Source: a virus. From it: DNA of 45,300 bases. Below, in pieces: positions 1,517-44,760 of the stretch. The DNA lies in IMG/VR virus record IMGVR_UViG_3300005613_000119, positions 1 to 45,300 of that record; one strand, written 5' to 3'. The translations under genes were made by a program, and so were the position numbers. The notes beneath the pieces are model-generated. The model worked only from the letters and a program-made list of their open reading frames with translations, did not search any database and was not told where the DNA came from. Position 1 is the first letter of the stretch, and each line of letters opens with the position of its first letter.

Positions 1517-4459
1517 ATGGCTAGACTTTTTGGTTTTTCAATTGAAGACTCAAATAAGAAATCATCTTCTATATTGTCCCCCATTCCTCAAAATAATGAG
1601 GATGGGGTTGATCATTATCTAACTAGTGGATTTTTTGGTTCTTATGTTGACATTGAAGGAGTATATAGAACAGAATTTGATTTAATAAAAAGATATAGGG
1701 AAATGTCTCTTCATCCAGAAGTAGATAGCGCTATAGAAGACATTGTTAATGAAGCTATAGTTTCAGATACTAATGATTCACCTGTTCAAATTGAATTGTC
1801 AAATTTAAATGCCAGTGATGGACTAAAGAAAAAAATAAGAGAAGAATTTAAATATATACTTGAATTATTAGATTTTGACAAAAAAGCTCATGAAATATAC
1901 AGAAATTGGTACATTGATGGAAGGTTATATTACCATAAAGTTATAAATCTTAAAAATCCACATGAAGGAATTCAAGAATTGAGATATATTGACTCAATGA
2001 AAATGCGTTATGTGAGGCAAGAGAAAAAAATAAAAAAGGATGATATAAATCAAAATTCTACAAATAGATTAATCGGAAATCAAAATCCGATGAATTTTAA
2101 ATTCCCAGAAATAGAAGAATATTTCATCTATGATCCAAAAAGTTCATATCCGATTGGTGGTGGAACTGCAAATATGGGAAATGCTTCACCGGATCGAGGA
2201 GTAAAAATTGCAAAGGATGCAATTACTTATTGTACTTCTGGACTAATTGATAGAAATAAAGGAACTACTTTATCTTATTTGAATAAAGCTATCAAGGCAT
2301 TAAATCAATTGAGAATGATTGAGGATTCATTGGTAATTTATCGCCTGTGTTTAATCGGTGATTCACGAGTCAAAACAGATAATGGATATTCATACATCAA
2401 AGATATTAATGTTGGTGATATTGTTTATGCGTATGATAATAGAGTTGATGCTCTAGTCAAAACTCCAGTCACTAATAAGTGGTTGACTGGAAAAAAGAAA
2501 ACTTATACAGTAAAATCAAAGCATCATAGCATTACCGGAACAGATACTCACCCTGTTCTCGTTTATGATTCTAATACAAAAGAAGTTAAGTATGTACCCA
2601 TTAAGGATCTAATTCCTAAAGTGCATTCACTGACTTATATCAAACCAGAATCTACGAATGATATTGTATTGTTCAATGATGTGAGAGAGAAAGCATACTC
2701 AATTGTTAATACTGAATTCTGGCCAACATTTAAACTAGAAGGAAAAGAAAAATTTATTAAAACTTTATCAGAAAAAACTGGCGTAAAAGAATCAAAAATT
2801 AAAAATTTCCTCTATGGCTTACAACATTTAGAAGAATCGAGTCTAGTTAAACTTAAAAAAGAGTTCGAAGAACTAAATGATATTGAGTATAACGAGAAGT
2901 ATGAAGGATTCTGCAATAATGAGCTTAGTCTCCCTGAGTTTGTAACTCCGGAGTTTGCTCGTCTATTTGGATTCTTGCTTGGCGATGGGTCTGTGAGTAA
3001 ATACAGAGTTGTTTTTGCTGAAGGAGAAGACAAAGAGCAAAATCTTTATTATGCAAATCTTATGAGAACTTTCTTCGGAAATTGTACAAGATATGATTCA
3101 AAGAATAGAAAATACACCAACTACACCACAAGTAATACTCTTGCTGCAGAACTACTAATTTCTCTTGGTTATATTCCAGGAGCAAAAAATAAGAGAATTC
3201 CAAGTTGGGTATTTAATGCATCAGATGAAATCAAGCGACAACTTGTTCTTGGTCTATTGGATGCTGATGGTCATTATCGTGATCTTGTGAATGGATTCTC
3301 ATGTGAAATTTCATTGTGTAATAAACAACTTATTGAAGATATCAAAGAGCTTTGGACTTCTATTGGTTTATGTTCTGGTCAGATTCGCCATAGAATTAGG
3401 GAAGAGCAGATGAGAATCGTTGGCGAGGAAAAAGAACCTCGATTGATGCCAGCATCAGAATCTTATGAACTATATCTAAGTGAATATGAACTTCCGAAGT
3501 TTGAGAAAATTATGTATGTTGAGTATCATTCCGAAGAGGAAGTTTATGATATAGAAGTCGAGCACGAAAAGCATAACTTCGTGGCTAACGGCATTGTGGT
3601 GCACAACTCAAGAGCACCCGAGCGTAGAATTTTTTACATTGATGTTGGTAATCTACCAAAAGTAAAAGCAGAGCAATATCTTCGTGATGTTATGATGCGT
3701 TATCGTAACAAACTCGTGTACGATGCAAGTACAGGGGAGATACGTGATGACAAAAAATTCATGAGTATGCTAGAAGATTTCTGGCTCCCACGCCGCGAAG
3801 GAGGTAGAGGAACAGAAATTGATACGCTACCTGGAGGACAAAACTTAGGTGAAATTACTGATATCAATTATTTTCAATCAAAACTATACAAGGCACTAAA
3901 TGTCCCATCATCAAGAATTGATGGAGATAGCGGTTTTAATTTGGGGAGATCTTCCGAAATACTCAGAGACGAATTAAAATTTAGTAAGTTTGTTGGAAGG
4001 CTCAGAAAGAGATTTTCTAATATGTTTAGTGATATGCTTAAAACTCAATTAATTCTAAAAAATATCATTACACCAGAAGATTGGGAATTAATGAATGAGC
4101 ACATTCAGTATGATTTTCTTTATGACAATCATTTTGCCGAATTGAAAGACTCGGAATTAATGACAGATCGTTTGAATATGCTGTCAATGGCAGAACCTTA
4201 TATTGGAAAGTATTATTCCCAAGATTATGTTCGTAGGAATATTCTTCGCCAAACTGACCAAGAAATTGTCGAACAAGATAAACTCATCAAAAAAGAAATT
4301 AAAGATGGAATTATACCAGATCCAAGTATTCCAGTAGATCCGAATACGGGAATGCCGATACAAGACGAGGACAATATCCAGGGTGAATTAGGAAAAGTCC
4401 CATTAGAACCACAACCAAAAGAAAAATCTATAGACATCCCATCTGGAGGGGAAATATAA
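1517..4459 (+). CDS. gp20: Portal vertex protein gp20 with in-frame intein
   Basis: A 980-residue precursor. Residues 1-277 and 698-980 join to a 560-residue portal protein, near the usual cyanophage gp20 size. The N-part has LISPIPQNNEDG-like sequence and ALNQLRMIEDSLVIYRL; the C-part resumes at SRAPERRIFYIDVGNLPK and runs through LEDFWLPRREGG and LPGGQNLGEI, the most conserved gp20 block. The portal is the dodecameric ring at the head vertex through which DNA enters and to which the tail attaches. Residues 278-697 are an intein set exactly between YRL and SRAPERR (separate entry). Without splicing the portal would be interrupted in its core, so splicing is presumably efficient. Arginine codons just after the intein favour CGT/CGC, unlike the AGA elsewhere in the gene. 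Confidence 0.95.
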   Translation: MARLFGFSIEDSNKKSSSILSPIPQNNEDGVDHYLTSGFFGSYVDIEGVYRTEFDLIKRYREMSLHPEVDSAIEDIVNEAIVSDTNDSPVQIELSNLNASDGLKKKIREEFKYILELLDFDKKAHEIYRNWYIDGRLYYHKVINLKNPHEGIQELRYIDSMKMRYVRQEKKIKKDDINQNSTNRLIGNQNPMNFKFPEIEEYFIYDPKSSYPIGGGTANMGNASPDRGVKIAKDAITYCTSGLIDRNKGTTLSYLNKAIKALNQLRMIEDSLVIYRLCLIGDSRVKTDNGYSYIKDINVGDIVYAYDNRVDALVKTPVTNKWLTGKKKTYTVKSKHHSITGTDTHPVLVYDSNTKEVKYVPIKDLIPKVHSLTYIKPESTNDIVLFNDVREKAYSIVNTEFWPTFKLEGKEKFIKTLSEKTGVKESKIKNFLYGLQHLEESSLVKLKKEFEELNDIEYNEKYEGFCNNELSLPEFVTPEFARLFGFLLGDGSVSKYRVVFAEGEDKEQNLYYANLMRTFFGNCTRYDSKNRKYTNYTTSNTLAAELLISLGYIPGAKNKRIPSWVFNASDEIKRQLVLGLLDADGHYRDLVNGFSCEISLCNKQLIEDIKELWTSIGLCSGQIRHRIREEQMRIVGEEKEPRLMPASESYELYLSEYELPKFEKIMYVEYHSEEEVYDIEVEHEKHNFVANGIVVHNSRAPERRIFYIDVGNLPKVKAEQYLRDVMMRYRNKLVYDASTGEIRDDKKFMSMLEDFWLPRREGGRGTEIDTLPGGQNLGEITDINYFQSKLYKALNVPSSRIDGDSGFNLGRSSEILRDELKFSKFVGRLRKRFSNMFSDMLKTQLILKNIITPEDWELMNEHIQYDFLYDNHFAELKDSELMTDRLNMLSMAEPYIGKYYSQDYVRRNILRQTDQEIVEQDKLIKKEIKDGIIPDPSIPVDPNTGMPIQDEDNIQGELGKVPLEPQPKEKSIDIPSGGEI
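2348..3607 (+). mobile_element. LAGLIDADG intein in gp20 (420 aa)
   Basis: Residues 278-697 of the precursor. Splicing blocks are visible in order: block A begins CLIGDSRV with Cys1; block B contains GTDTHPVLVYD with the TxxH motif; block F is VYDIEVEHEKHNF; block G is ANGIVVHN, ending in His-Asn, followed by Ser as the +1 nucleophile. Between them are two dodecapeptide motifs of a LAGLIDADG endonuclease, LFGFLLGDGSV and LVLGLLDADGH, each with the catalytic Asp. Everything needed for both splicing and homing is present, so this looks like a full-length active intein. Its removal restores a continuous portal protein. Confidence 0.93.
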
Positions 4460-4946: not shown

Positions 4947-6698
4947 ATGAAACTAATCACAGAAGAAATTTCTAAAGTAAAATTTATTACAGAAGAAAAA
5001 AATGGACAAAAATCTCTTCACATAGAGGGAATTTTTTTACAAGCTGACATACAAAATAGAAATGGTAGGTGTTACCCAATGGAAACTCTCGCCAGAGAGG
5101 TTAGTAGATACAATGAAAATTATATCGGTAAAGGTAGAGCACTAGGAGAACTTGGACATCCTTGTCTAAGTGAAGATGCAAAGCTACTTTCAGAAAGTAA
5201 TGGTTGGAAGCATATTAAAAACTGCGAAGAAGGAGAATTAGTTTATACCATAAATCCAGAAACAAAAGAAGTTGAATTACATCCAGTCAAAAAAGTTGTA
5301 ATCAATGATCATAATGGTATTATGTATACCATTAAAAACAGAGGTATCAACACCAAAGTTACTCCAGATCATCGTTTTTTGATTATCAATGGTAGAAACA
5401 ATCATGATCATAAGTTTGTGACTGCACAAGAAATTTATGAAGATCTAAACGGAGAAAATGTTTATAAGAAATGGTATATTCCAAAGTATTCTCTAGGTTT
5501 GAATGAGGAAGCTCCTGATACCTATGTGATACCAAAATCTTCTAATATTCAAGTCATCAACGAAAAGACCGAAAAGTATCTAGAAGATCTTGAAATTGAA
5601 TTCAATACCTTTGCTGCTTTTCTTGGCATTTACCTAGCAGAAGGTCACTGTAGCATTAGAACTAATGGTTCTTATAATGTTGGCATTACTCAAAATCAAG
5701 GAGAAAAAGCAGATCGAATCAAAGAAATTTTAGATTCAATTAAAGAATTAACTTGGCATGAGAGCTATTGTGATGGTAAAATTATTTGGACTTGTTATGA
5801 TAGAAGACTTGGTGAATATCTACACCAATTTGGTGATTGCTATTCTAAGTATATTCCAAGAGATTTTATAAAAAGTCTCAATTCTGATGTAGCAAGAATA
5901 TTTATTGATTATTTTGTTCTTGGTGATGGTAGAGGCGATCTACAAAAACAATATTCTAGATGTGATTGTTTTAGTGCATCAGAAAAATTAATTGATGATA
6001 TTGCTCAAATAGCTACTATAGCTGGCATTGGAGTTTCTAGATTTAGCGAAACTACCACAGAAAATTATGTGTTTGCTGGTAGAGTTATCAAAGCAGAAAA
6101 TAAAGTTCCACTATACTTTTGTCGTTTCCTAAACACTAAAGGAATTTATCTAGACAATAGATTCCTTGAGATGACTACCGAAGATTGGAATGATAAAGTT
6201 TATTGTATTCAGGTAGAAAATACCAACTTCATGGTAGAACAAAATGGATACAGCTATTGGACTGGTAATTGTGGTCCCACAGTGAATCTAGATCGTGTAT
6301 CTCATATGATCACTTCATTGAAAGAAAGTGGCAATAATTTCATTGGTAAAGCAAAAATTCTCGATACTCCTATGGGAAAAATTGCTTCATCTCTAATTTC
6401 AGAAGGAGTTAAACTTGGGGTGTCTTCTCGTGGAATTGGTTCTTTGGTAGAGCGTAATGGTGTTCGTTATGTCTCTGATGATTTTATGTTAGCTACTGCT
6501 GCTGATATAGTTGCGGATCCTTCTGCCCCAGATGCTTTTGTAAATGGAATAATGGAAGGAGTTGAATGGATATATGACGCATCTAGGAATGATTGGTTAA
6601 TGCAAAACATGAAAAAAAGAATCAATCATCTAGTTAATACTAAAGAACTAGAAGAAAAGAAAATTCAGCTATTTGATGAGTTTTTAAATTCCCTCTAA
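4947..6698 (+). CDS. gp21: Prohead core protease gp21 with in-frame intein
   Basis: A 583-residue precursor whose exteins (residues 1-72 and 442-583) total 214 residues, almost the size of T4 gp21 (212). The N-extein ends GRALGELGHP, the block that carries the catalytic His of the T4 prohead protease family (MEROPS S77). The C-extein begins CGPTVNLDRVSHMI and contains GVSSRGIGS, the block with the catalytic Ser. The enzyme is made as a zymogen inside the prohead and cleaves scaffold and capsid proteins after (I/L)xE. The intein is inserted two residues after the active-site His, so the unspliced precursor should be inactive. The gene follows the 88-residue gene by three bases and is followed by tandem late boxes for gp22. 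Confidence 0.95.
   Translation: MKLITEEISKVKFITEEKNGQKSLHIEGIFLQADIQNRNGRCYPMETLAREVSRYNENYIGKGRALGELGHPCLSEDAKLLSESNGWKHIKNCEEGELVYTINPETKEVELHPVKKVVINDHNGIMYTIKNRGINTKVTPDHRFLIINGRNNHDHKFVTAQEIYEDLNGENVYKKWYIPKYSLGLNEEAPDTYVIPKSSNIQVINEKTEKYLEDLEIEFNTFAAFLGIYLAEGHCSIRTNGSYNVGITQNQGEKADRIKEILDSIKELTWHESYCDGKIIWTCYDRRLGEYLHQFGDCYSKYIPRDFIKSLNSDVARIFIDYFVLGDGRGDLQKQYSRCDCFSASEKLIDDIAQIATIAGIGVSRFSETTTENYVFAGRVIKAENKVPLYFCRFLNTKGIYLDNRFLEMTTEDWNDKVYCIQVENTNFMVEQNGYSYWTGNCGPTVNLDRVSHMITSLKESGNNFIGKAKILDTPMGKIASSLISEGVKLGVSSRGIGSLVERNGVRYVSDDFMLATAADIVADPSAPDAFVNGIMEGVEWIYDASRNDWLMQNMKKRINHLVNTKELEEKKIQLFDEFLNSL
5163..6269 (+). mobile_element. LAGLIDADG intein in gp21 (369 aa)
   Basis: Residues 73-441 of the precursor. 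Block A starts CLSEDAKLLSE; block B has KVTPDHRFLI with the TxxH pattern; two LAGLIDADG helices appear as FLGIYLAEGHC and YFVLGDGRGD; block F is VYCIQVENTNFMVEQNG; the C-terminus is YSYWTGN followed by Cys+1. The residue before the terminal Asn is Gly rather than the usual His, a known but less common variation. Extein junctions are clean: removal leaves GELGHP joined to CGPTVNLDRVS. Confidence 0.92.
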
Positions 6699-23325: not shown

Positions 23326-26300
23326 TGCGCTGGTACACTAATGTCAAACAACTTGGAAATAAAATATATGTTCGTGGACATGACGGAGAGAAAAAAATTT
23401 CTCATACAATTGAATACAATCCAACATTTTATGTTACATCAAATATAAAAACCAAGTATAAAACATTAGATGGAAAGTATGTAAAACCAATACAGCCAGG
23501 TTCTATAAAAGAGTCAAAACAATATATCGAAAAATATAAAGATGTAGAGGGTTTTGATATTTACGGTAATGAATCTGCCGTATATCAGTATATTTCGGAT
23601 AACTATCCTGAAGAGCATATTGATTATGATATTTCAAAAATGTCAATTTGGGCAATTGATATTGAAGTTTCTTCTGAGAACGGATTTCCGGATCCCAAAA
23701 ATTGCGATGAAGAAATTTTACTAATTACGATACAAGATTACACATCAAAAGAAATTTATACCTGGGGAACTAAACCACTAAAGAAAAAAATAAAAAATCA
23801 TAATTATTTTTATTGCAAAGATGAAACAGCGTTGATTTATTCATTTTTGAATTTTTGGCAAAATAATACTCCAGAAATTATTACTGGATGGAACTGCATT
23901 CCATTAGACTCAAATATTTGGACTTACGATAAAATAGTTAAATTAAAGAATGTTAAAGTGAATCAAAAATTATATGATAGTACTGTTACAGAATTATTTC
24001 CGAAGAGCAATAAAACTTCCGTTGTCCAAAAATTGTCTAATGGCGCAACCATAAAATCTTCATATGATCACATTTTCCCATATGTACTATGTGATAAAAA
24101 TAAGTATACAAATTTAGATGTAAATTCCCGAAAAACAAATACACGCTGTTCTGACATGTCAGTTAAGGAGGCAATGGAAAGCGAAGAAGAAAAATTTTTA
24201 TATGTCCCAACTAGAAAAAATTCAAATCTGGATAATCCAAATTATACTTATGATCAATGTTATTTGTTGGGCTTAATCTATACAGATGGATCGATGAAAA
24301 ATAAAAATAAACTAACAAATGGATTTACATTTTATCAATCCGATTGTGATTTTTTATCTGTTCTTAAAGAACAATATTCAATTAACAATAAATTAGTTGG
24401 GCCATACAGTGGATGCTTTCATGTACATATTCCACATAAAATTATAGGAAATGTAGATCCAATATACAATGAAAAAAATAAAAAAGAAATAAATTTAGAA
24501 CTTATTTCTACTTTTTCCGAAAAGCAATTCTACATGTTTTTATCTGGATTATTGGATGGGGATGGAACAACTGATGGTAAGTCTATTTCTTTTTGTAATT
24601 ATAATGATGATCTAGAAAAAATATATGAACTTTCTCTTTGGAATGGGATATTTAGTTCAATTCACAAATCTAAAAATACTATTCGTTTCATTGATATTGA
24701 TTTGAATAAGTTTAATTTGCTTAAAGTCAAACGGTGGGAGAAAATTGATGAAATAAAATCTGTTTCCAGAGATTCTTCGGAGCTTGCCTCACTTAAGCGG
24801 TTTAGGAAAATAGATGGTGGCTATTTGGTTAGGGTAGTTTCTTTTGATGAATCTGAAATTTCTGAGATGATGGATATTGGAACTGATACTCATTATTTTA
24901 TTTCTAATGGAGTAAAAACTCATAATTGTATGTATTATGACTTTCCTTATATTATTGGCAGAATGAATAGAGTCATAGGAGAAAAAGAAACAAAAAAATT
25001 ATCTCCATACAATTGGATTTCAAATAGAGATGTGGAAGTTCGTATTGGAGAAAAGCAAACAATTTATGATATTTTTGGAGTATCTATTGTAGATTATTTA
25101 GATTTATACAAAAAATATTCATTCAAAAAACCAGAAAATTTCAGATTAGACACAATTGCGTATAATGAACTTGGCCAAAACAAATTAGATCATAGCCAAT
25201 ATGAAACATTCAAAGATTTTTATAGTAATGATTGGGAAACTTTTGTTGAGTATAATGTTATAGACACAGAACTAGTCAATAAATTAGAAGACAAACTTCA
25301 CATGGTAGAATTGGCAATTATGCTTGCCTACGACTCTAAAACTAATTTTGAAGATGTTTTTTATCAAGTTAGGATGTGGGATACTATCATCTATAATTAC
25401 CTTCGGGAAAAAAATATTGTAATTCCACTAAAGACAGGAGTAAAAGAAAAGTCAAGTAAATTTGCTGGTGCTTTTGTGAAAGAACCAGTCCCTGGATCAT
25501 ATGATTATGTCGTGAGTATGGATTTAACCTCTCTATATCCACATATTATGATGGGAATGAATATAAGTCCAGACACACTAGTGGATGAAAGATTTTCAAG
25601 TGTGTCAGTGGAATCTATCTTGAATAAATCAATAGAGTTTCCAGAAAATCTAGAATATTCTGTTACTCCAAATGGTTCCATGTATAGAAAAGATAAAATG
25701 GGATTTCTTCCGGAGCTTCTAGAAAAAATGTTCCAGAAGAGGAAATTATATAAAGATAAGATGAAGGAACTTAAAAAAGAATATGAAAAAACGCAAGACA
25801 AGAAATTAAAAAAAATGATTTCTATGTATAGCGTAAAAGAGCAATCAATTAAAGTTTGTTTGAATTCTTGTTATGGGGCCACCGGAAATCCATATTTTAG
25901 GTTTTATGATTTGAGAAATGCAGAAGCGGTAACATATACCGGACAATTAGCAATTCGTTGGATAGAAAAAAAGTTTAATGAATATTTTAATAAAATATTG
26001 AAAACACAAGATGTTGATTATGTAGTTTATTGTGATACTGATTCTGCATTCTTAAATTTGAAACCATTGGTAAGTTTAGTTTATAAGAATAAAACACCTT
26101 CTAAATTACAAATTATAGATTTCTTAGATAAAATTTTTTCGACTAGTATTCAAGATTATGTAGATCAGTCTTATCGAGAGTTAGCTGAATATTTGAATGC
26201 TTATGCACATAAACTACATATGAAGCGCGAAAAAATTACAGATCGAGCTGTGTTTATTGCTAAAAAAAGGTACATTGCAAATGTATGGGATAATGAGGGA

Positions 26301-30252: not shown

Positions 30253-30354
30253 CTTTTGTACGGCAATACTCTACGGACAGCATTGGGTGCTTCTTATGAG
30301 GCACCTTTTGTTTTGCCAAAAATTATTCGACTAAATAATAATGCCGTACAAAAG
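30253..30354 (+). promoter_or_regulatory. Structured element 1 upstream of endonuclease gene
   Basis: Outer arms CTTTTGTACGGCA (30253-30265) and TGCCGTACAAAAG (30342-30354) are a perfect 13-base inverted repeat. Inside are a repeated TACGG, a hairpin GGTGCTT/AGGCACC with loop CTTATG (30286-30305) followed by a T-rich tract, and ACTAAATAATAA just before the right arm. The same arrangement occurs at 42179-42257 before an unrelated endonuclease gene. Confidence 0.7.
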
Positions 30355-30361
30355 AATAACA

Positions 30362-31297
30362 ATGGCAAGTATCAAAAAACTGACCACGGAAGAAATTATC
30401 CAGCGTTTCAAAGAAAAAAGAGATGACAAAGGAGAATTCTACGATTACTCCCAAGTCAATTATGTTAATACTCAAACAAAGGTCAAAATAATATGCCCAC
30501 TTCACGGTGAATTTCACCAATTTCCTAAGGATCACGCTAGGGGATATAGTGGATGCGTTAAATGTTCAACACAAAAACGAGAAATTACAAATCTAGAAAA
30601 ATACGGGACAAACTGTGTCTTTAAAAACGAAGAGATAAAAACAAAAATAAAACAAACAAATATAGAAAGATATGGAGTAGAAAATCCATCACAATGTCCA
30701 GAAATACACCAAAAGAAGATGGAAACTTGTTTGAAAAATTATGGATACGAATCTGCTTTAACATCTCCTATAGGAAGACAAAAAATAATACAAACAAATC
30801 TAGAAAAATACGGAGTTTCGTGTGCAATGAAACTTTCAGAAATCACACAAAAATCCGTAGCAACCAGAATTCAAAATGGAACCTACATGCCAAAAAATTG
30901 TTCATATGAATGCCGAGACTTCATGAGAACCTACATAAAACAAAAAAATTATGATTTAGATCAATGTGCATTTTCTGACTCGGAAAACAATCTACATGAA
31001 TGGGGATATCATGTTGATGGTAGATGGGTTCTTTATGACTTAGTTGTATTTGAAAAAGGTTTCAGGGGGAATAAAGACAGAATCATAGAAATTCTAGAAT
31101 ATCATGGTCCATTTCACTACACAGAAAAAGATGTATTAGAAAGAGGAGAGCAAAAAGCTACTCCATGGAAAGCCAAAACAATTACAATCAAAGAAAGTTA
31201 CGAAATCGACAAACTGAAAGAAAAATTTGCAAAATCTTTAACGACTAACTATACTGTAATTTGGCCTAGTAAATACCACGAAAATGACAAAGCATAA
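30362..31297 (+). CDS. Homing endonuclease, Vsr-like (EDxHD-type) with DUF723-like N-terminus
   Basis: About 311 residues from the ATG at 30362; an earlier ATG at 30341 lies inside the inverted-repeat arm, so the later start is preferred. Numbered from there, residues about 30-70 have a zinc-ribbon-like IICPLHGEF...GCVKCST segment of DUF723 type. Next come three repeats of the LEKYGxxxxxxxxxI form (NLEKYGTNCVF, NIERYGVENPS, NLEKYGVSCAM), probably DNA-binding. The C-terminal domain has GYHVDGRWVLYDLVVFEKG and IIEILEYHGPFHYTEKD, which fits the D, E and H residues of the Vsr-like/EDxHD homing nuclease family known from marine phage split-gene loci. It stands between mazG and a small cyanophage gene. 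Confidence 0.82.
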   Translation: MASIKKLTTEEIIQRFKEKRDDKGEFYDYSQVNYVNTQTKVKIICPLHGEFHQFPKDHARGYSGCVKCSTQKREITNLEKYGTNCVFKNEEIKTKIKQTNIERYGVENPSQCPEIHQKKMETCLKNYGYESALTSPIGRQKIIQTNLEKYGVSCAMKLSEITQKSVATRIQNGTYMPKNCSYECRDFMRTYIKQKNYDLDQCAFSDSENNLHEWGYHVDGRWVLYDLVVFEKGFRGNKDRIIEILEYHGPFHYTEKDVLERGEQKATPWKAKTITIKESYEIDKLKEKFAKSLTTNYTVIWPSKYHENDKA

Positions 31298-42267: not shown

Positions 42268-43071
42268 ATGGCTAAAAATAGTCCAAGAATTTATACATAC
42301 AAAATTACTTTTGAAGAAGTTCCTTATTATTACTATGGAGTTCATAAGGAAAGAAAATATAATGAAAATTATATGGGAACTCCACAAACACACAAGTGGA
42401 TGTGGAATTTCTATACGCCAAAGAAACAAATACTTCAATTTTTTGAATACACTGATTGTGGTTGGATGGAAGCACAACAGGTAGAAAAGCGATTAATAAG
42501 ACCTGTACATCAAACAGATAAATGGTGTTTAAATGAAGCTTGTGGTGGAAGAATTTCTTTAGAAATTTTGAAACGAAATCGAGAGTTGGGTATTGGAATT
42601 CATTCATTGTCTAAAGAAGAACACTTAAATGTTTGTAGATCTGGGGGAAAGAAATGTTATGAACTTGGGTTGGGAGTTCATGCACTGACTACAGAAGAAA
42701 AAAGTGAAATTGGCAAAAGATCTGGAAAATTTACATATGAAAATAAATTGGGATTTTATAGTTGGACAGAAGAAGAAAAACGGGAACATAATAGGAAAGC
42801 AGGAAAGAAAGCTTATGAATCTGGTGTAGGAATTCACGCACAGACTCATGAAGATAAAGTAAAAATGGGAATGAGGACATATCAGTTGGGTGTTGGTGTA
42901 CATTTATTGACAAGTAAAGAAAGAAGTGATTTTGGGAGAATTGGTGGAATTAAAACTTCTTCCCAAGTTTGGCAGTGTACGGTGACTGGCCATCAATCAA
43001 ATGCTGGTGCACTTTCTATATACCAAAGAAATAGAGGAATAGACACAACAAATCGAATAAGAATCAACTGA
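42268..43071 (+). CDS. GIY-YIG-like homing endonuclease with repeated DNA-binding modules
   Basis: A 267-residue protein. The N-terminal YTYKITFEEVPYYYYGVHKE segment is a variant GIY-YIG start, as in Seg-type phage endonucleases. Residues about 105-235 hold five repeats of roughly 30-35 residues built on GxGxHxLTxEEKxxxGxxxGKKxYE (for example LGVHALTTEEKSEIGKRSGK), a NUMOD-like DNA-binding array. The C-terminus WQCTVTGHQSNAGALSIYQR is typical of the group. It sits between nrdB and a late cargo-like gene, preceded by element 2. Activity is not shown, but the frame is intact. Confidence 0.82.
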   Translation: MAKNSPRIYTYKITFEEVPYYYYGVHKERKYNENYMGTPQTHKWMWNFYTPKKQILQFFEYTDCGWMEAQQVEKRLIRPVHQTDKWCLNEACGGRISLEILKRNRELGIGIHSLSKEEHLNVCRSGGKKCYELGLGVHALTTEEKSEIGKRSGKFTYENKLGFYSWTEEEKREHNRKAGKKAYESGVGIHAQTHEDKVKMGMRTYQLGVGVHLLTSKERSDFGRIGGIKTSSQVWQCTVTGHQSNAGALSIYQRNRGIDTTNRIRIN

Positions 43072-44320: not shown

Positions 44321-44345
44321 AAAGGGAGCCTTGGCTCCCTTTTTT
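44321..44345. terminator. Bidirectional terminator between convergent genes
   Basis: AAGGGAGC-CTTG-GCTCCCTT stem with A-rich sequence on the left and a T run on the right, so it can act on both strands. It separates the basic protein gene from the minus-strand endonuclease gene, whose stop codon lies in the T run. Confidence 0.88.
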
Positions 44346-44760
44346 ATTCTTGAGATTTAATTACAATCTCGTAAAGTCGCTCTGCCTCGCTAGAAAAAAA
44401 CTTTCCTTCTACATTCGTATTGTAATAATCTTCTCTTAAAATTACATCTCGTTTAAATTGTTCCATGGTTTCATAGAAACTCATGGATTTTTTGTGTGGA
44501 CATAAGTATAGAATTTCACGGCGAAATTTATCTTTACCTAATTTTTTTACATCTTCTATTAATTCATCGCATGAGCCAAAATAATCTCGCCAATTACTTT
44601 CTTTTTTCTTTCTTCTTCCTGTTTTTTTATCTTTTCTTCTTTCCCAGAAATTCTTTTTTCCGATATATTTTTTTTCGTTTTCTAGATTTGTGATAAGATA
44701 AACAAATCCTTCCATGCCATTTGGCACTTCATCGATAATTTTTTCTTTTATGTACCACAC
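44344..44760 (-). CDS. GIY-YIG endonuclease (minus strand)
   Basis: A 138-residue protein, the only clear minus-strand gene. The initiation codon of the full frame is GTG; an ATG at residue 16, just before GFVYLITNLENEKKYIGKKN, is an alternative start. That segment is the GIY-YIG motif, followed by a basic loop (RRKDKKTGRRKKKESNWRDY) and helices with FRREILYLC and a catalytic-type Glu region (SFYETMEQ). Such small nucleases are common in cyanophages, annotated as putative endonucleases. A minus-strand ATAAATA box at 44813-44807 may drive it. No DNA-binding array is present, so homing activity is uncertain. Confidence 0.82.
   Translation of the reverse strand: MWYIKEKIIDEVPNGMEGFVYLITNLENEKKYIGKKNFWERRKDKKTGRRKKKESNWRDYFGSCDELIEDVKKLGKDKFRREILYLCPHKKSMSFYETMEQFKRDVILREDYYNTNVEGKFFSSEAERLYEIVIKSQE

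Follow-up and report, generated by a model that had tools for sequence, protein, structure and literature searches.

The closest described counterpart of the protease considered here is T4 gp21 (5jbl, Peptidase_S77), which has the same protease fold and triad but, unlike our protein, no intein. The construct in that structure reads GELNAPPRANVDP (GELNAP) and GVASRG where wild-type Tequatrovirus gp21 reads GELNHPPRANVDP (GELNHP) and GVSSRG. With Ala in place of both the wild-type His and Ser, the crystallised T4 gp21 appears to have been inactivated at two positions, the His that precedes the insert in our protein and, in the block beyond the insert, the first Ser. For a distant relative, SPN3US gp245, the published triad, aligned to T4 gp21, comprises H77, S153, and D178 (PMC5694885). 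The inteins TliVMA, PhoVMA, and PI-PkoII (7qsu, 7qst, and 2cw7; Z 23-25) resemble ours in having a HINT domain with an inserted LAGLIDADG endonuclease, but they reside in archaeal host proteins and are 16-20% identical to it over the aligned part. Among phages, the intein in gp51 (RDF) of mycobacteriophage Bethlehem is likewise of class 1, with Cys1, a penultimate Gly, and an endonuclease; it interrupts another host protein, and its splicing was measured, whereas the intein reported here is known from sequence (PMC5050341). The Bethlehem intein spliced completely with Gly, while a Gly-to-His change caused precursor to accumulate (Kelley 2016, PMC5050341); the effect of a penultimate change differs in direction among other inteins (PMC5050341). 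A penultimate His is common but not obligatory in class 1 inteins, some of which splice without it (PMC7664689, PMC5050341). As to location, same-site inteins are generally stated to be close kin and different-site inteins to be often highly divergent (PMC2814812), and mycobacteriophage inteins at several active-centre points were taken as independent invasions (PMC5050341).

We analyzed a 45,300-nucleotide stretch of an uncultivated virus record (hereafter, the window). Directly in the neighbourhood of its portal gene, on the downstream side, a single open frame of 583 aa (4947-6698) encodes a T4-type prohead protease gp21 (Peptidase_S77, phrog_207), as judged by its His-Ser-Asp triad, its fold, and the surrounding head genes. 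The gp21 flanks of the insert scored 100 bits against Peptidase_S77 (Pfam). A preliminary description of this DNA had placed an intein at 5163-6269, after GELGHP with its active-site His and ahead of the Ser block, and had pointed out a Gly rather than a His before the terminal Asn. The open reading frame, Pfam, and fold matches bear out these coordinates to the base; the flanking sequence is exactly as described, with Ser493 in GVSSRG downstream, and the penultimate residue is Gly440. The role given to the His also held, since it aligns with the Ala of GELNAP in 5jbl, and H71, S493, and D520 were invariant among 35 and 37 aligned relatives in two alignments. The insertion point lies two residues past His71, which is thereby split from Ser493 and Asp520, and at the downstream junction the codon of the terminal Asn (6267-6269) is followed by that of the +1 Cys (6270-6272). 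The features are listed in Table 1.

Table 1. Features of the gp21 gene and its intein, with positions in the window
Feature	Position	Strand	Basis
N-extein of prohead protease gp21, residues 1-72, ends GELGHP	4947..5162	+	ORF; Peptidase_S77, phrog_207
Catalytic His71 codon (Ala in T4 gp21 construct 5jbl)	5157..5159	+	Comparison with T4 gp21; invariant in alignments
Class 1 intein, 369 aa, Cys1 ... Thr-Gly-Asn, residues 73-441	5163..6269	+	Sequence, Pfam, alignment, fold match
Intein Cys1 (Cys73 of ORF), N-terminal nucleophile	5163..5165	+	Cys in 74/74
Splicing block B TPDH (Thr139, His142)	5361..5372	+	Alignment
LAGLIDADG motif 1, LGIYLAEG	5622..5645	+	Sequence, alignment
LAGLIDADG motif 2, FVLGDG	5913..5930	+	Sequence, alignment
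Block F Cys420, position F:4	6204..6206	+	Alignment
Penultimate Gly440 and terminal Asn441	6264..6269	+	Sequence
C-extein of gp21, first residue +1 Cys442, CGPTVNLDRVSH	6270..6695	+	ORF, sequence, Pfam
Catalytic Ser493, in GVSSRG	6423..6425	+	T4 gp21 comparison, alignment
Invariant Asp520, probable third triad member	6504..6506	+	Alignment

On the intein, Pfam recognised Intein_splicing (38.6 bits, E 1.2e-9) and LAGLIDADG_3, the latter at 22.0 bits, just below the 22.5 cut-off. The block B TxxH of class 1 inteins is found in VTPDH (residues 138-142), N441 is followed by C442, and two LAGLIDADG motifs with acidic residues lie within an endonuclease fold. An AlphaFold model of the precursor, built from 35 homologous rows (pLDDT 82, with a low-confidence stretch at residues 443-449), has the class 1 HINT fold: residues 71-441 matched intein-endonuclease structures with Z up to 24.8 (TliVMA), and the endonuclease region matched I-DmoI (Z 14.1 over model residues 218-398). 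The model also matched T4 gp21 (5jbl) with Z 17.3 and an rmsd of 2.2 Å over 135 residues drawn from both flanks of the insert. Since the protease fold is kept across the insertion in the model, inactivity would stem from local distortion of the loop rather than loss of the fold. It is plausible that the unspliced precursor is inactive.

We collected 74 distinct homologous gp21 inteins for which the sequence could be read across both junctions, mostly through IMG/VR scans started with the window intein; ten gp21 ORFs whose two splice junctions could not both be parsed, some of them near-duplicates of those listed, were left out. Most of the loci are on uncultivated contigs; one member comes from the isolated Nitratidesulfovibrio vulgaris phage SRB7757 (PV062637), which has a single gp21 place, and another from the 484-kb huge-phage record LR756508. 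The nearest relatives of the window intein are L001 (91% identity in the intein) and L002 (76%), while distant ones are about 32% identical. The SRB7757 and LR756508 inteins, about 32% identical to the window intein along the full length, share its gene, loop, and TGN end, but in these unannotated records they are inserted one codon further 3' and have a +1 Ser (HPS/C...N/S and HPD/C...N/S, respectively; slashes mark splice junctions). Cys1 is present in 74/74 of the gp21 inteins, the block F Cys in 72/74, and Thr or Ser at G:5 in 71/74; together with the terminal Asn, these residues make up the predicted splicing centre. When cellular genome contigs were scanned with the intein alignment, a gp21 extein was found at none of the 79 intein loci. 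The open-licence PubMed Central literature yielded no earlier report of a gp21 intein, and the open-licence papers examined that name both gp21 and intein place the intein in other genes. As a separate observation, four of the gp21 ORFs (L195, L206, L211, and L212) are about 890-920 aa long, with a C-extein that extends into a long coiled-coil-like tail, and are perhaps protease-scaffold fusions.

Compared with undecayed relatives, dN/dS in the intein was 0.08-0.16, indicating purifying selection, and that of the exteins was 0.06-0.15; against L001, it was 0.08 in both, and for the intein against L087, L088, and L090, it was 0.12-0.16. Together with the 74 homologues, this selection argues that the insert is not there by chance. 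In L002, the endonuclease region is shorter by 36 residues and much of its identity is gone, whereas the splicing blocks are as well matched as those of its neighbours, and L129 (158 aa) and L130 (151 aa) are mini-inteins that lack the endonuclease; both the decay and the mini-inteins are predicted by a homing cycle. Transfer via homing likewise predicts pairs in which intein identity is far above extein identity, such as L153/L155 (67% vs 31%) and L153/L165 (69% vs 31%). However, intein and extein similarity were moderately correlated (Spearman 0.41), so inheritance is partly vertical, a point against a pure homing account.

Other inteins and endonuclease-like ORFs were seen in the same records. 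A second window intein (2348-3607, 420 aa, LAGLIDADG, with the canonical penultimate His) is in the neighbouring portal gene, gp20 (YRL/CLIGDSRV...VHN/SRAPERR), and a third (23895-24926, 344 aa) is in the DNA polymerase gene (GWN/CIPLDSN...THN/CMYYDFPY). The portal gene of L001 (1-2511) lacks the window's portal intein and has a different, HNH-like one at another site (VYDA/CLAM...YTCN/STGE). By eye, window ORFs at 30341-31297, 42268-43071, and 44344-44760 (minus strand) are putative free-standing homing endonucleases, the last GIY-YIG-like, and a 566-aa ORF that directly follows gp21 in LR756508, the huge phage (L004, 5672-7372), is a putative zinc-finger homing endonuclease.

Across the family, the intein occupies at least four registers within seven residues of the catalytic His (GE/xxHP, HP/, HPx/, and HPxx/), each directly before Ser or Cys. 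With the His as position 0, 22/74 inteins, that of the window included, are inserted after +1 (HP/C or HP/S), 46/74 after +2 (HPx/S or HPx/C), and L130 alone after +3 (HPDS/S), while five (L122, L188, L190, L209, and L240) lie before the His (GE/[CS]xHP). In examples of each register read by eye, the loop from the His to a V/I-N-like motif was of constant length, so the shift in register is real relative to the protease. On the intein tree (quick IQ-TREE, with SH-aLRT support only), 10 register changes were needed, and starred branches alone required the HPx/ label to have been gained or lost at least seven times and HP/ at least four times. In an AU test, neither the HP/ inteins (p 6e-59) nor the GE/ inteins (p 3e-6) could be held to a single clade, and on these alignments a single origin of either register is rejected. 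Register labels nevertheless cluster on the tree, which suggests that shifts are occasional. L155 (HPA/S) and L159 (HP/S) have inteins that are 80% identical despite their differing registers. The 12 rows of the window's HP/C clade have L097 (HPD/S) as their sister, with further HPx/ inteins just outside; because HPx/ inteins surround the clade, a change into HP/ from HPx/ is the simpler reading for this part of the tree, depending on where the root lies. What is new here is an intein family with several registers around one catalytic His. We lean slightly towards one intein lineage that repeatedly re-inserts a codon or codons away in the same active-site loop, wherever a Ser or Cys codon exists, with a site that is not fixed as generally assumed; alternatively, the pattern may stem from repeated invasion by kin inteins.

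Of the gp21 loci retrieved with the C-extein, 79/80 were intein-free and the remaining one was truncated. An initial set of 115 distinct alleles lacking the intein, biased to near relatives, always had Asp or Glu after HP, and the window clade has its +1 Cys where these stand. An essential Asp or Glu at this position was rejected, as at least 120 intein-free GELGHPSGP alleles, with Ser there, turned up in a pattern scan, indicating that the residue after HP is tolerant of change. Two contigs, L493 and L494, carry GELGHPCGP uninterrupted by an intein and directly encode the spliced sequence GELGHPCGPTVN (HPCGPTVN); as read from these contigs, the exact spliced junction occurs in nature without splicing. 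The L493 and L494 proteases are 76-81% identical to those of the intein-bearing L090, L091, and L138 and about equally close to some Asp alleles, and they may be clean intein losses or alleles in which the Cys came first. L493 and L494 themselves are identical to about residue 165 and differ after it, as if the C-terminal part had recombined.

The window intein has Cys at F:4 and Thr at G:5, two of the three residues that form the class 3 signature, and in a class 3 splicing route Cys420 of block F would be the first branch nucleophile. However, B:12 is Phe, not Trp, leaving the WCT motif incomplete, and the N-terminal nucleophile Cys1 is present here as in 74/74 gp21 inteins. Furthermore, Cys ranks second commonest at F:4 in inteins at large (PMC4031507), and Thr at G:5 also occurs in gp41-1, a class 1 intein (PMC7664689). 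We therefore rejected class 3 chemistry, which is very unlikely for this intein, and assign it to class 1 on the strength of Cys1 and the Phe at B:12. Harder still to credit is a decayed intein in a non-functional gp21: the protease triad of the precursor is divided by 369 residues, but every splicing residue is intact in one open frame, the intein and exteins have the low dN/dS values given above, and no second gp21 match was found in the 45 kb record, itself a fragment.

The preliminary description had also suggested that splicing may serve as an extra zymogen switch before head maturation, and that the Gly, which often slows splicing, makes a timing role more plausible. An adaptive switch of this kind, with gp21 held inactive until the prohead is assembled, would suit an intein placed two residues downstream of the catalytic His, which it parts from Ser493 and Asp520, in a protease whose T4 counterpart is already produced as a zymogen (PMC9026906); the splicing rate of a phage intein is also tunable (PMC5050341). 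However, Gly is penultimate in 69/74 distinct gp21 inteins, the exceptions being exactly the five before-His ones listed above (L, K, N, L, and H), and in 59/63 inteins with scorable ends from cellular contigs. The Bethlehem intein, the one phage intein tested, is slowed by His and splices faster with Gly (PMC5050341). Given this family-wide pattern and the Bethlehem data, Gly is no reason to expect slow splicing in the window intein, and we rejected it as a mark of slow splicing. Because intein-free relatives are common, close ones among them, and two alleles directly encode the spliced sequence, head maturation needs no switch, and inteins habitually sit in conserved motifs (PMC2814812) in any case. 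An adaptive switch is thus improbable, and a timing role is not supported, as nothing found favours it over ordinary fast splicing; a regulatory side-effect of the splicing rate may exist.

Collectively, these findings suggest that the insert is very probably a selfish, mobile class 1 intein that splices itself out and carries a LAGLIDADG homing endonuclease; it would occupy the active-site loop of this T4-type prohead protease and be kept by homing, not by a need of the phage for delayed activation. After translation, Cys1 and Cys+1 would carry out an acyl shift and transesterification of the usual kind, Asn441 would cyclise, and GELGHP would be joined to CGPTVNLDR to yield mature gp21. The endonuclease is predicted to cut empty gp21 alleles of co-infecting phages, into which the intein would be copied. 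Its persistence could then be explained by homing, a conserved site, and the cost of imprecise removal; a phage requirement for delayed protease activation would not be the cause.

These results remove a weak argument, that a penultimate residue other than His means slow splicing, which could mislead annotation. They also provide a large natural series in which one intein type is found in four registers about one catalytic residue, with matching intein-free and apparent clean-loss alleles. This series makes it testable how inteins reach neighbouring sites and whether placement in an active site ever regulates the host protein.
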